Positions 12,918 to 16,284 of a stretch of DNA of 36,497 nucleotides are shown here, one piece after another. The notes under the pieces were generated by a model. That model did not search any database and was not told the DNA's origin. It saw nothing but the letters and a program-made list of their open reading frames with translations. Location of the stretch: assembly GCA_902565935.1 (NCBI GenBank), contig CACFGT010000014.1:1-36497 (forward strand), given 5' to 3'. Source of the DNA: an uncultured Pelagibacteraceae bacterium. GTDB taxonomy: Bacteria; Pseudomonadota; Alphaproteobacteria; Pelagibacterales; Pelagibacteraceae. Position 1 is the first letter of the stretch, and each line of letters begins with the position of its first letter. The position numbers and the translations under genes were made by a program.

Positions 12918-13562
12918 CAAAAAATAATAAATAATCTTAACATTATTAAAAGTGAAATTGAATCAAAGAAAAAAAAAGTAGATATAATTGCAGTTTCAAA
13001 AACTTTTCCATTAAATACAATTACTCCTTTAATAAATAACGGCCATGTACATTATGGAGAAAATAAAGTGCAGGAAGCAGTTGTGAAATGGAGCTCTATT
13101 AAAAATGACTTTAAACTGATTAAATTACATCTTATTGGTAAACTTCAAACAAATAAAGTGAAGCTTGTTTTACCATTGTTTGATTTCATTCACTCACTAG
13201 ATAGTATGAAATTAGCTGAAAAAATTTCTTTGGAGCAAAAAAAAAAGAATTTTAAACCAAAAATATTTGTACAGGTAAACATTGGAAACGAAGTTCAAAA
13301 AAATGGTATCGATAAAGAAAATTTAGCTCCCTTTTTGGCTTCATGTAAAAAGAATTTTGATTTAGATATTATTGGATTAATGTGCATACCCCCAAATGAT
13401 GATAAGACAGAGTTATATTTTAGAGAAATGCAAGAACTAAATAAAAAGTTTGGATTTAGTGATCTAAGTATGGGTATGTCATCCGACTATATTTCAGCTA
13501 TTGACCATGGAGCAACTTACATAAGAGTGGGTTCCAAGATTTTTGGTGAAAGATCTAAGTAA
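12912..13562 (+). CDS. YggS family pyridoxal phosphate-binding protein
   Basis: This is the PLP-binding homeostasis protein family (YggS/PROSC/PipY), which binds free pyridoxal 5'-phosphate without known catalysis and keeps vitamin B6 and amino-acid pools balanced. The 216-residue protein shows the PLP-lysine motif IIAVSKTFP, the GENKVQEA signature, the HLIGKLQTNK segment, and the C-terminal GMSSDYISAIDHGATYIRVGSKIFG loop that binds the PLP phosphate. Length and motifs are complete. The start ATG at 12912 lies in a palindrome shared with the divergent ThiE-like gene. The 3' end overlaps the convergent L,D-transpeptidase gene by 8 bp. Confidence 0.94.
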   Translation: MDQKIINNLNIIKSEIESKKKKVDIIAVSKTFPLNTITPLINNGHVHYGENKVQEAVVKWSSIKNDFKLIKLHLIGKLQTNKVKLVLPLFDFIHSLDSMKLAEKISLEQKKKNFKPKIFVQVNIGNEVQKNGIDKENLAPFLASCKKNFDLDIIGLMCIPPNDDKTELYFREMQELNKKFGFSDLSMGMSSDYISAIDHGATYIRVGSKIFGERSK

Positions 13563-14055
13563 TCTTAATTTTCGTATTCTTATTAATTAACTTTATTAAG
13601 ATTAATAAATCGCTTTTTTTCAGCGCAATACATCCTGCTGTGTGCTTGTAATTTTTTGTTAAGTGAATAAAAATTGCACTGCCTTTCCCTAGTTTTGTTT
13701 TTTTAAAATTAAATTTGATTGGAATTACCAAATCATAAATATTGTCTTTTCGGTACATTTTCTCATGCATTATTTTATTTTTCTTATTTATATTTATTAA
13801 TTTGTTATAATTTTTTTTATTATTAGTATCATCACACCATCCCATACTTTTTATTATTGGAGTACATTTTAGTTTTGTTTTAGGTCTTTTTAACCGGTCC
13901 TTTCGATAATATAATTTATCTAAATTAAATACACCTTTAGGTGTTTTTTTATCTCCCTCTTTTTTGTTGGAAGTAAGACCATTTTTACCTATAGCACATC
14001 TAAAAAAAAAATTTTTGTAGTGAAGAGTATCTTTATTTTTAAGAGTAATTATCAT
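13555..14055 (-). CDS. L,D-transpeptidase (YkuD) domain protein
   Basis: The 166-residue protein consists of one YkuD domain. The catalytic signature is GSAIFIHLTKNYKHTAGCIAL, with His in FIHL and the nucleophile Cys in AGC. Upstream parts typical of the alphaproteobacterial family are KEGDKKTPKGVF, SMGWCDDTNNKKNYN and HEKMYRKDNIYDLVI. YkuD enzymes form 3-3 peptidoglycan cross-links or attach proteins to the wall. No signal peptide is visible (MIITLKNKDTLHYKN), which is common in this subfamily, so its location and substrate are open. It converges on yggS (8-bp overlap) and diverges from the winged-helix regulator with only 12 bp between starts. Confidence 0.85.
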   Translation of the reverse strand: MIITLKNKDTLHYKNFFFRCAIGKNGLTSNKKEGDKKTPKGVFNLDKLYYRKDRLKRPKTKLKCTPIIKSMGWCDDTNNKKNYNKLININKKNKIMHEKMYRKDNIYDLVIPIKFNFKKTKLGKGSAIFIHLTKNYKHTAGCIALKKSDLLILIKLINKNTKIKIT

Positions 14056-14067
14056 ATCTTTAGTAGC

Positions 14068-14631
14068 ATGAGTCTAAAAAAATTAATTATTTTTGAACAT
14101 TCTTTATTATTTAACATTTTAAGTGAAATTAGTGAAGTTTTGAATTTTGATTTAATTCAAGCAGATCGAAATAATCTTAATGATATCAAAAAAAGATTGG
14201 CAGGAGATTTTTTAATAATTTCTAAAGATCAGAATGCAATTGAATCTCATTACTCGGTTTTAAAAAATTTACCTTTGAAAATATCTAAATTAATCGAAAC
14301 AATTAACATAGAATTTTTGAAAAAAAAATTTGACCTTCAGTCTGATTTAACTATTGGACCTTATAATTTGAATTTAAATTCAAGGCAAATTTCAAAGAAA
14401 AATGTGAAGCTAAATTTAACAGAAAGGGAAGGAAATTTGATTATTTTTTTAAACAAATCAACCTCACCTGTTTCAGTTGAAACACTTCAAAAAGAAGTTT
14501 GGGATTATGGATCGGAATTAGAAACTCATACTGTCGAAACGCATATTTATAGACTTAGAAAAAAAATTAAAGATAAATTTAATGATAATAGTTTTATTAT
14601 TAGTTCAAAGGAAGGTTACATTATTAATTGA
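14068..14631 (+). CDS. OmpR/PhoB-type winged-helix regulator with degenerate receiver
   Basis: I choose the ATG at 14068 (187 residues) over the one at 14020, which lies inside the divergent YkuD gene. The C-terminal domain is a clear OmpR-type winged helix: KLNLTEREGNLIIFLNKS, VSVETLQKEVWDYG, then the recognition helix ETHTVETHIYRLRKKIKDK and the wing FIISSKEGYIIN. The N-terminal half looks like a shrunken response-regulator receiver: LIIFEHSLL stands where the acidic pair should be and DFLIISKDQN where the phospho-accepting Asp should be, and the domain is about 90 rather than 120 residues. It probably acts without phosphorylation. The stop TGA overlaps the TTG start of the ArfA-like gene downstream. 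Target genes are unknown. Confidence 0.82.
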   Translation: MSLKKLIIFEHSLLFNILSEISEVLNFDLIQADRNNLNDIKKRLAGDFLIISKDQNAIESHYSVLKNLPLKISKLIETINIEFLKKKFDLQSDLTIGPYNLNLNSRQISKKNVKLNLTEREGNLIIFLNKSTSPVSVETLQKEVWDYGSELETHTVETHIYRLRKKIKDKFNDNSFIISSKEGYIIN

Positions 14632-14735
14632 AAAAAAAAAATGTAATAGCTAAAGATTTATTTACAAAAAAATATAAGCCTAGAATTATAAAACCTAAAA
14701 AAGGCAAAGGTAGTTTTAAAAGAAGAAAAAAATAA
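14628..14735 (+). CDS. arfA: ArfA-like alternative ribosome-rescue factor, 35 codons, TTG start
   Basis: A short frame starts at TTG 14628 (overlapping the regulator's TGA as TTGA) and ends at TAA 14733. The first ATG in the gap (14641) is followed at once by TAA in its own frame, so TTG is the only sensible start. The 35-residue product is highly basic. Its second half, YKPRIIKPKKGKGSFKRRKK, matches the core of ArfA, in which F-x-x-R-V-x-K-x-KKGKGS-(Y/F)-x-R binds the empty mRNA channel and recruits a release factor to stalled ribosomes. IAKDLF corresponds to the preceding helix. The C-terminal hydrophobic tail of enterobacterial ArfA is missing, as in the truncated active form. Alternative: a coincidental basic peptide, which I find unlikely given KKGKGS. 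Confidence 0.72.
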   Translation: MKKKNVIAKDLFTKKYKPRIIKPKKGKGSFKRRKK

Positions 14736-14738
14736 ATT

Positions 14739-15350
14739 TTATTTTTTACTAGGTAATATGCTCACATTAAAGCTTATTACAATTCTATCTTCATTTGATA
14801 AGCTCTTACCAACATCATGATAAAGGTAAGATGGAAATATTAATAAATTTCCCTCCTCTGGTTTAATACTAAAACCAGTACTGCTAAGCTCAGTCATTTT
14901 TTCAACCGGTGGAGTTTGAAATTTTTTAACTTCATTAGGTTCATAAAAATGAATATTTCCACAATTTTCTGGAGCTTTAACGTAATATGCAGCACTCAAG
15001 TATGATCCTGGATGATTGTGTGATTGATTAAATGTTCCTTTTTTATTTATGATTGCCCAGATTTCAGAAATACCAACTTTTTCAGGAATATATTTCCAAC
15101 CATAACCATCAACAATTACTTCTTTTACATGCTCATGTATTGCTTTAACGAAATTGTAAGGCACATTATCTTTTTCAATTATAAAATTTTTTGAGTGCCA
15201 ACCATTTACATTTGATCTTTGTATTCCTTTTTCATCATCTTTTTTAAGTCCATAGATATAATCAGAGAGCTGCTTATTAAGATTTTCAAAATTGTCTATT
15301 TTAAATTGAAACACTGGAGAAGGGAATAGTCTATGTATTATTTTGCTCAT
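14739..15350 (-). CDS. putative 2OG-Fe(II) oxygenase (TIGR02466-like)
   Basis: This 203-residue protein belongs to a family of putative 2-oxoglutarate/Fe(II)-dependent oxygenases frequent in marine bacteria and their phages. The N-terminus IHRLFPSPVFQFKID has the family FPSPV motif. A jelly-roll core follows: WAIINKKGTFNQSHNHPGSY, LSAAYYVKAPENCGNIHFYEP, then NLLIFPSYLYHDVGKSLSNE and DRIVISFNV. HNH/HxHP and the later YHDVG supply histidines for iron, and the Arg of EDRIVISFN would hold 2-oxoglutarate. The substrate is unknown. It sits 3 bp from the end of the ArfA-like gene and 4 bp downstream of the adenosine kinase gene on the same strand. Confidence 0.8.
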   Translation of the reverse strand: MSKIIHRLFPSPVFQFKIDNFENLNKQLSDYIYGLKKDDEKGIQRSNVNGWHSKNFIIEKDNVPYNFVKAIHEHVKEVIVDGYGWKYIPEKVGISEIWAIINKKGTFNQSHNHPGSYLSAAYYVKAPENCGNIHFYEPNEVKKFQTPPVEKMTELSSTGFSIKPEEGNLLIFPSYLYHDVGKSLSNEDRIVISFNVSILPSKK

Positions 15351-15354
15351 AACT

Positions 15355-16284
15355 TTAAAGTCTAGCTCCCATTTTTTGAATTATTTTTGAAGATAATTCA
15401 GTGCCCTTTTCTAAACTGTCTTTTGTTTGAAGTCCATTTATATATCCATGAAGAAAACCAGCAGCAAATAAATCACCCGCACCAGTTAAATCTATAATGT
15501 TTAAATTTTTTTTTACATTTACCTCTATGGTTTTTTCACCAAATATTGCAATTGCTCCTTTTTCACCTCTTGTAATTACAATTAATTTTTTTATCTGCTT
15601 TGCAAAAGTAACTACATCTTGAAAATTTTTAGCTTCTATTAAGGAAATCATCTCTTGCTCGTTTGCAAAAGTAATATCTAATTTATTTCTTACCAATTCT
15701 AAAAAATTTACTCTGTGTCTATCAACACAGAACTTATCAGATAAAGTCATGGCGATTTTGTTTGAGTATTTTATAGCTTTATTAAAGGCTTTTTGTGGTT
15801 CACCTTCATCCCATAAATAACCTTCTAAAAAAATCATATCGCTCTCTTGTAAAGTTTTTTCATTAATATCAATATCATTAATTTTCCCAGCTATCCCAAG
15901 ATAGGTAAACATAGTTCGTTCAGAGTCTGGAGTTATTAATATCAAGCAAGTTCCAGTAGGAAGTAATTCTTTTTTTTTAGAGTAAAAATAGGTTACTTTT
16001 TCTTTTTCTAGACCCTCCTGATATTTATTTCCAAGTTCATCATCATTAATTTTACCAATAAACCCAACTTTATTATTTAATTGTGAAAGACCTACAATAG
16101 AATTAGCTACTGAACCACCCGCAACAGTTTTTTCAATTTTCAGTTTTAAAAGCAAGGTTTTAAATTCATTTTCGTCAAAAGTAAGCTTCATTGTTCCTTT
16201 AGTAAGATTATTTTTAAAGAGAAAATCCTCGTTAACTTTACAGATCACATCTACAATTGCATTACCTATACCTATAATTTTCAT
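15355..16284 (-). CDS. adenosine kinase-like PfkB family sugar kinase
   Basis: A 309-residue ribokinase-fold kinase. The N-terminal MKIIGIGNAIVDVICKVNEDFL and GGSVANSIVGLSQL match bacterial adenosine kinases of alphaproteobacteria. The C-terminal signature DLTGAGDLFAAGFLHGYING holds the catalytic Asp of the GAGD anion hole. ITRGEKGAIAIFGEK is the preceding ATP-site strand. Adenosine kinase makes AMP from adenosine, salvaging nucleoside or the adenosine released by S-adenosylhomocysteine hydrolysis; another PfkB substrate cannot be excluded. It starts next to the nth stop with no gap and ends 4 bases before the oxygenase gene, so the minus-strand genes form one run. Confidence 0.85.
   Translation of the reverse strand: MKIIGIGNAIVDVICKVNEDFLFKNNLTKGTMKLTFDENEFKTLLLKLKIEKTVAGGSVANSIVGLSQLNNKVGFIGKINDDELGNKYQEGLEKEKVTYFYSKKKELLPTGTCLILITPDSERTMFTYLGIAGKINDIDINEKTLQESDMIFLEGYLWDEGEPQKAFNKAIKYSNKIAMTLSDKFCVDRHRVNFLELVRNKLDITFANEQEMISLIEAKNFQDVVTFAKQIKKLIVITRGEKGAIAIFGEKTIEVNVKKNLNIIDLTGAGDLFAAGFLHGYINGLQTKDSLEKGTELSSKIIQKMGARL

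Follow-up and report, generated by a model that had tools for sequence, protein, structure and literature searches.

A divergent minimal ArfA-type ribosome-rescue gene predicted in SAR11 bacteria, with no visible E. coli-type switch

The window, that is, the whole stretch of 36,497 nucleotides of DNA analysed here, comes from an uncultured Pelagibacteraceae bacterium (SAR11) and contains, on its forward strand, a frame of 35 codons followed by TAA that translates as LKKKNVIAKDLFTKKYKPRIIKPKKGKGSFKRRKK (Table 1). As the initial annotation had proposed, this frame begins at a TTG that overlaps the stop codon of a regulator gene, both codons being read from a shared TTGA. The regulator is of the OmpR/PhoB winged-helix type, and no receiver domain was found in it above a Pfam cut-off. 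Two convergent genes lie to the right, the second of which is sugar-kinase-like and presumably pfkB; it is called pfkB-like below.

Table 1. Features of the locus, in coordinates of the window
Feature	Position	Strand	Remarks
Predicted arfA-type gene	14628..14735	+	35 aa; TTG start, TAA stop; PF03889, PDB, profile comparison, dN/dS
Start codon TTG of the arfA frame	14628-14630	+	
TTGA overlap of arfA start and winged-helix stop	14628..14631	+	4 nt shared
Winged-helix stop codon TGA	14629-14631	+	winged-helix ATG at 14068
Run of 11 A	14631..14641	+	lysine codons and start of the next codon
N-terminal core NVIAKDLFTKKYKPRIIKP, predicted release-factor contact part	14640..14696	+	ungapped alignment with E. 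coli ArfA chains
Y16 codon	14673-14675	+	aligned with E. coli F25
KKGKGSF motif, predicted mRNA-channel tail	14697..14717	+	
OmpR/PhoB-type winged-helix regulator	14068..14631	+	Trans_reg_C, 48.5 bits
2OG-Fe(II) oxygenase-like gene (TIGR02466)	14739..15350	-	convergent
Sugar-kinase-like gene	15355..16284	-	convergent; conserved right-hand neighbour
YkuD-domain gene	13555..14055	-	conserved left-hand neighbour

The proposal that this short, TTG-initiated frame is a real gene related to arfA is borne out by profile searches. The 35-aa protein matches the Pfam ArfA family (PF03889) at 23.8 bits (E 3e-5), under the gathering cut-off of 25.5 and over profile positions 23-42 only, and it is the single match at E ≤ 0.001 in the source genome (E 1.4e-4; 1.1 Mb, assembly completeness 95.8%). 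Among 297 genomes of the order, PF03889 matches at E ≤ 0.001 in 196, all of them in the window's own family, and finds no match in 101; its cut-off is exceeded in 114, a relative from genus g2 reaching 32.8 bits. When the single 35-mer was searched against the PDB sequences, all six hits were E. coli ArfA, with weak E values (0.06-0.18) and gap-free alignments across query residues 3-34. In a comparison of profiles, hhalign gives 97.3% (E 2.2e-11) between 23 SAR11 sequences and 14 ArfA sequences from other classes of the phylum, presumably gamma and beta. By contrast, NCBIfam is uninformative here, since no ArfA model of that collection matches the 35-aa protein or two ArfA proteins of other classes. 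The KGKGS motif also stands in register with the homologous N-terminal core. We consider it very probable, from sequence comparison, that positions 14628-14735 encode a minimal ArfA-type alternative ribosome-rescue factor.

Conservation among relatives points in the same direction. The 140 loci compared are the best-scoring ones rather than a random sample; all have the core, and they provide 124 unique sequences. KKGKGS is invariant in 124/124 and a stop codon is found at every locus (TAA 91, TAG 28, TGA 5), as expected from the claim that frame and motif are conserved in other SAR11 bacteria, but this invariance proves little by itself, because the motif was also the pattern by which many of the loci were fetched. 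More informative are the N-terminal 20 codons, which lie outside that pattern: their median dN/dS is 0.32, and 98.6% of 1521 close pairs (mutually non-independent) fall below 1. The frame is thus under purifying selection. An asparagine and a leucine never vary, and the residue opposite E. coli F25 is Y in 117 sequences and F in seven. Start codons, as picked by rule, are ATG in 99 loci, TTG in 13 and GTG in 10, with two unassigned. The run of 11 A's noted at the beginning of the frame is where it was said to be, but it is not conserved as a run, since at least 11 A's occur in the lysine-codon stretch of only 37 of the 124 loci and the others are broken, often by AAG. Consequently, the run was rejected as a slippage or regulatory element and is read as lysine codons.

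A scan of a genome collection confirmed at least 419 loci; each of the 80 among the matches listed bears the name Pelagibacteraceae, Pelagibacterales or Candidatus Pelagibacter and so belongs to SAR11. The neighbourhood is also conserved. In a first set of 31 loci, 29 have the winged-helix gene upstream and 29 the pfkB-like gene downstream; in the two exceptions (G001 and G007) the winged-helix gene is still on the strand of arfA, which follows it at a distance of approximately 1.5 kb. Among the 124 unique loci, some of which are clipped by contig ends, the winged-helix gene is found in 113 and the pfkB-like gene in 115. Where the offset could be assigned (111 loci), arfA overlaps the winged-helix stop in 97, abuts it in six and lies further off in eight. 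The coupling to a regulator suggested by the initial annotation therefore holds as a matter of position (overlap or abutment in 103/111 loci), and only in that sense. As a separate observation, the TIGR02466 oxygenase-like gene is found between arfA and the pfkB-like gene only in some relatives, which indicates that this junction takes inserts.

The frame is conserved, as the initial annotation expected, but some SAR11 genomes do not have the gene. Ten arfA-less genomes of the same genus were examined, and in nine of them arfA is cleanly missing, with the winged-helix and pfkB-like genes directly adjoining; in the tenth, the locus was not found. These nine cases show that arfA is dispensable in places and that the winged-helix gene is independent of it. 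On a tree of the pfkB-like protein with 108 rows, 11 of which lack arfA, the state of arfA has to change four times, and well-supported branches force two of these changes; some rows, among them the window's own, are on long branches. An early gain followed by several losses is the simplest reading of this pattern, although it is not a proof.

Ten genomes gave only weak matches to the SAR11 profile. One of these is a chance match inside a long frame and was discarded, while the other nine (G009, G054, G263, G004, G018, G027, G077, G085 and G089) hold a frame of 41-47 codons (L287-L295) that has a similar N-terminal core and lacks KKGKGS; a KKGKGS-ArfA was not found in these SAR11 relatives. 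One of the frames reaches 27.1 with the Pfam family DUF7230 (PF23876, cut-off 27) in its genome, and the remainder are at or below that cut-off, two of them without any score. When the DUF7230 model was run over 46 genomes it matched in three, all from one SAR11 genus without KKGKGS-ArfA, and in none of 14 controls; in a second set, it gave no match in three genomes of family f2 (G004, G018 and G027). Because the model missed the latter, the label “DUF7230-like” rests on profile comparison and, for f2, on sub-threshold scores. With hhalign, the nine frames give 96.3% against SAR11 ArfA and 15.5% against ArfA of other classes, and, given the latter value, the link of DUF7230 to ArfA proper must be considered a lead, not a result. 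No mention of DUF7230 was found in the literature searched, which mostly did not cover subscription papers.

With regard to other rescue routes, the initial annotation had pointed to ssrA and arfB as genes to look for elsewhere in the genome. The former is present, as an alpha-type tmRNA (229 bits), together with SmpB (188 bits), and the tmRNA model matches in 269 of the 297 genomes of the order. In many SAR11 genomes this alpha model gives two to four matches. ArfB, by contrast, was not found: the only two genes with an RF-1 domain in the source genome are those of RF2 and RF1, and the ArfB model (NF006718, cut-off 100 bits) exceeds its cut-off in 0/297 genomes of the order and in 2/14 control genomes. 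Sub-cut-off matches occur in 294/297 genomes and, among the matches listed, are mostly frames of release-factor size. Most Alphaproteobacteria do have ArfB, which the table in the available part of PMC11633108 lists for 2,022 of 2,376 genomes, so ArfA appears to fill in SAR11 the back-up place that ArfB holds in most members of the class. A trade-off between tmRNA and ArfA was also considered and rejected, since 14 of the 16 listed tmRNA-negative genomes of the window's family have ArfA (a hand count; there are eight more negatives), which is close to the family-wide rate of about four in five (also counted by hand).

How such a protein might work can be considered from what is known in E. coli, where, according to the available text of the relevant papers, the ArfA tail sits in the empty mRNA channel and residues 15-31 touch RF2 (PMC5378476, PMC6299226, PMC8012679), the KGKGS motif having its role in that channel (PMC6299226). 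The same papers, as far as available, place F25 in a pocket formed by V198 and F217 of RF2 and describe L19, L24 and F25 as meeting Trp319 (PMC5378476, PMC6299226, PMC8012679), while the change A18T inactivates the protein (PMC5378476). In our alignment and numbering, W319 and F217 are retained in RF2 of the source genome, and V198 is replaced by Ile. On the side of ArfA, the N-terminal RF2-contact patch differs from that of E. coli, which qualifies the initial annotation: among L19, L24 and F25 only the aromatic residue is kept in SAR11, and, in the 124 sequences, position 18 is K/R in 121, position 19 is D/E in 115 and position 24 is K in 120. Given these charged residues the contact must differ from that of E. 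coli, and, judging from the alignments, SAR11 ArfA likely recruits RF2 through a contact that differs in detail.

By analogy with E. coli, we propose that, when a ribosome has stalled where a truncated message ends, the tail KKGKGSFKRRKK would lie in its empty mRNA channel, and that the N-terminal core would recruit and open a release factor, most likely RF2, leading to peptide release. In this way, ArfA would back up trans-translation, the sole other rescue route found in the source genome, in place of ArfB. The protein would be made from an ordinary message containing a stop codon, in a unit where arfA comes second and its start overlaps the stop of the winged-helix gene, and its production would not depend on whether tmRNA is working or not.

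On the latter point, SAR11 and E. coli seem to differ. In E. coli, according to the available part of PMC8012679, arfA contains a stem-loop that leads to a non-stop message, a target of trans-translation, and the end of the full-length protein is hydrophobic and unstable. Starting at the KKGKGS codons, we folded stretches of 120 nt, compared them with dinucleotide shuffles and counted z values below -2. In SAR11 no hairpin was found downstream of KKGKGS (mean z 0.06; below -2 in 2% of 111 loci), while a control set of enterobacterial or Pasteurella-like loci, so assigned by their look (L257-L272), gave a mean z of -5.27 with 12/12 located loci below -2, and a second control set from other classes (L273-L286) a mean z of -3.34 with 7/9. 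Viral arfA-type loci fall below -2 in 12% of 78 cases and other alphaproteobacterial loci in 3/5, so the missing hairpin is not general to Alphaproteobacteria. Several of the ArfA proteins of other classes (L273-L281) end in -AA (SKAA, RQAA, LLLAA; 7 of the 21 located), which we take to resemble an encoded ssrA-like degradation end. SAR11 ArfA terminates at the KKGKGS tail or shortly after it and has no hydrophobic C-terminus, in agreement with the initial annotation. With the hairpin not found and the protein ending near KKGKGS, we see neither of the two arms of the E. coli switch. Consequently, the SAR11 genes seem to form a subfamily of ArfA that does without the tmRNA-dependent switch, and, as tail and in-gene hairpin are both missing, the earlier suggestion that the protein would constitutively be the short form is a fair inference. 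From the overlap of stop and start, we further infer that arfA production follows the translation of the winged-helix gene.

The family also occurs outside SAR11. A sample of the class gave PF03889 matches in 10 of 385 genomes, three of them SAR11; among the other seven, five have a similar core and motif and two are off-pattern. In a sample of the phylum, matches were obtained in 37 of 349 genomes. Viral contigs of IMG/VR gave at least 207 confirmed matches, and the 80 contigs among the matches listed provided 76 readable frames, 53 of them distinct once trimmed. In annotated phages, a longer viral query matched 12 of the 50,697 records with E ≤ 1, although several of these matches are weak. 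Pelagibacter phage HTVC027P, whose host is HTCC1062, is among them with 65% identity, as are four roseophages, a single cyanophage and two records of Caulobacter phage Cr30; two of the 12 records are already annotated as alternative ribosome-rescue factor, and most as hypothetical only. Judging from these sequences, the phages that encode putative ArfA relatives are mostly phages of Alphaproteobacteria. A tblastn search of phages with the window peptide gave no match, possibly because its low-complexity filter masks the query, and PHROGs gave one weak match, to a family of unknown function. Phage ArfA is mentioned in the available text of two papers, for HTVC027P gp30 (PMC12753301) and for Citromicrobium phage RXM (PMC8953757).

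The published picture is narrower. ArfA has been described as restricted to some beta- and gammaproteobacteria (PMC8012679, as available), and in the accessible part of a survey that covered over 15,000 genomes it is confined to Gamma- and some Betaproteobacteria and to 10 species of the Bacillus subtilis group (PMC11633108). In the table of that survey, arfA is found in 0 of 2,376 Alphaproteobacteria, to be compared with 196 of the 297 SAR11-order genomes sampled here. No report of chromosomal ArfA in SAR11 was found in the literature on ArfA, Alphaproteobacteria or Pelagibacter and SAR11 trans-translation, including the available text of PMC11633108, PMC12753301 and PMC9004378, subscription papers being mostly outside this coverage. 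The gene is a divergent minimal ArfA, new in distribution and regulation and of a kind already known.

Other explanations of the gene have to be weighed against this reading. As the hydrophobic patch that gives E. coli ArfA its RF2-specificity is mostly gone, with positions 19 and 24 charged in nearly all 124 sequences, the protein could be derived from ArfA but work in the manner of ArfT, bringing in RF1 or both release factors; ArfT, of 40 aa, recruits RF1 or RF2 and has a non-hydrophobic residue at the F25 position (PMC6299226, in the part available). We regard this as unlikely, because the aromatic residue at that position is retained in 124/124 sequences, the RF2 pocket residues are kept, and KKGKGS is intact.

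It is still harder to see the protein as a small basic peptide that associates with the ribosome or binds RNA through its KKGKGS tail and has no rescue activity. The Pfam match is dominated by the tail, and basic residues match easily, but the N-terminal core aligns gap-free with E. coli ArfA and is under selection, and the gene sits in genomes where ArfB was not found, all of which makes this a quite improbable explanation. A short, A-rich, TTG-initiated frame could be a chance open frame in an A-rich genome; with matches in 196/297 genomes, synteny at 29/31 loci and purifying selection, the probability of this is practically negligible. The identification as an ArfA that most likely works with RF2 is consequently preferred.

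A broader proposal, which we find doubtful and offer only tentatively, would be that a distinct subfamily of ArfA, which meets the release factor through an altered interface, is common to SAR11, to other Alphaproteobacteria here and there and to their phages, that it is switch-free in SAR11, and that the uncharacterised DUF7230-like proteins of SAR11 relatives without it form a second, KGKGS-less branch of this family that may also act on stalled ribosomes. Apart from this, the SAR11 gene lacks the hairpin and tail on which the tmRNA feedback of E. coli rests, provides a natural minimal ArfA of 35 residues for structural work, and is linked to copies carried by phages, including a phage with a SAR11 host.

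Among known systems, ArfB (YaeJ) has the alternative rescue role in common with SAR11 ArfA and has a hydrolase domain of its own. BrfA has two N-terminal helices that touch 23S rRNA (PMC6881298, in the available text). The domain of unknown function DUF7230 (PF23876) has an N-terminal core, KNPxAxxLRTxKFKxxV, like that of SAR11 ArfA, without KKGKGS. The phage genes (HTVC027P gp30 and RXM g10) and the IMG/VR frames have a similar core, often NPxAK[DE][LV]RTPKYKxRVVKPKKGKGS, but some are N-terminally extended, unlike SAR11 ArfA, and gp30 overlaps the start of the small terminase gene, whereas SAR11 arfA overlaps the winged-helix stop. ArfT of Francisella is similar in size and basic tail, although, in its published description (PMC6299226, as available), it has KKGGSTNKK for KKGKGS and a non-hydrophobic F25 position, neither of which applies to SAR11 ArfA. 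Finally, E. coli-type ArfA (PF03889) and SAR11 ArfA have in common the ungapped core with its invariant N, the aromatic residue at the F25 position, the basic KKGKGS tail and the presence of tmRNA and RF2 in the same genome; in contrast to that of E. coli, the SAR11 protein is some 10 residues shorter at its N-terminus, has no hydrophobic C-terminus and no hairpin within its gene, is charged at positions 18, 19 and 24, and is encoded by a gene whose start overlaps the upstream regulator gene.
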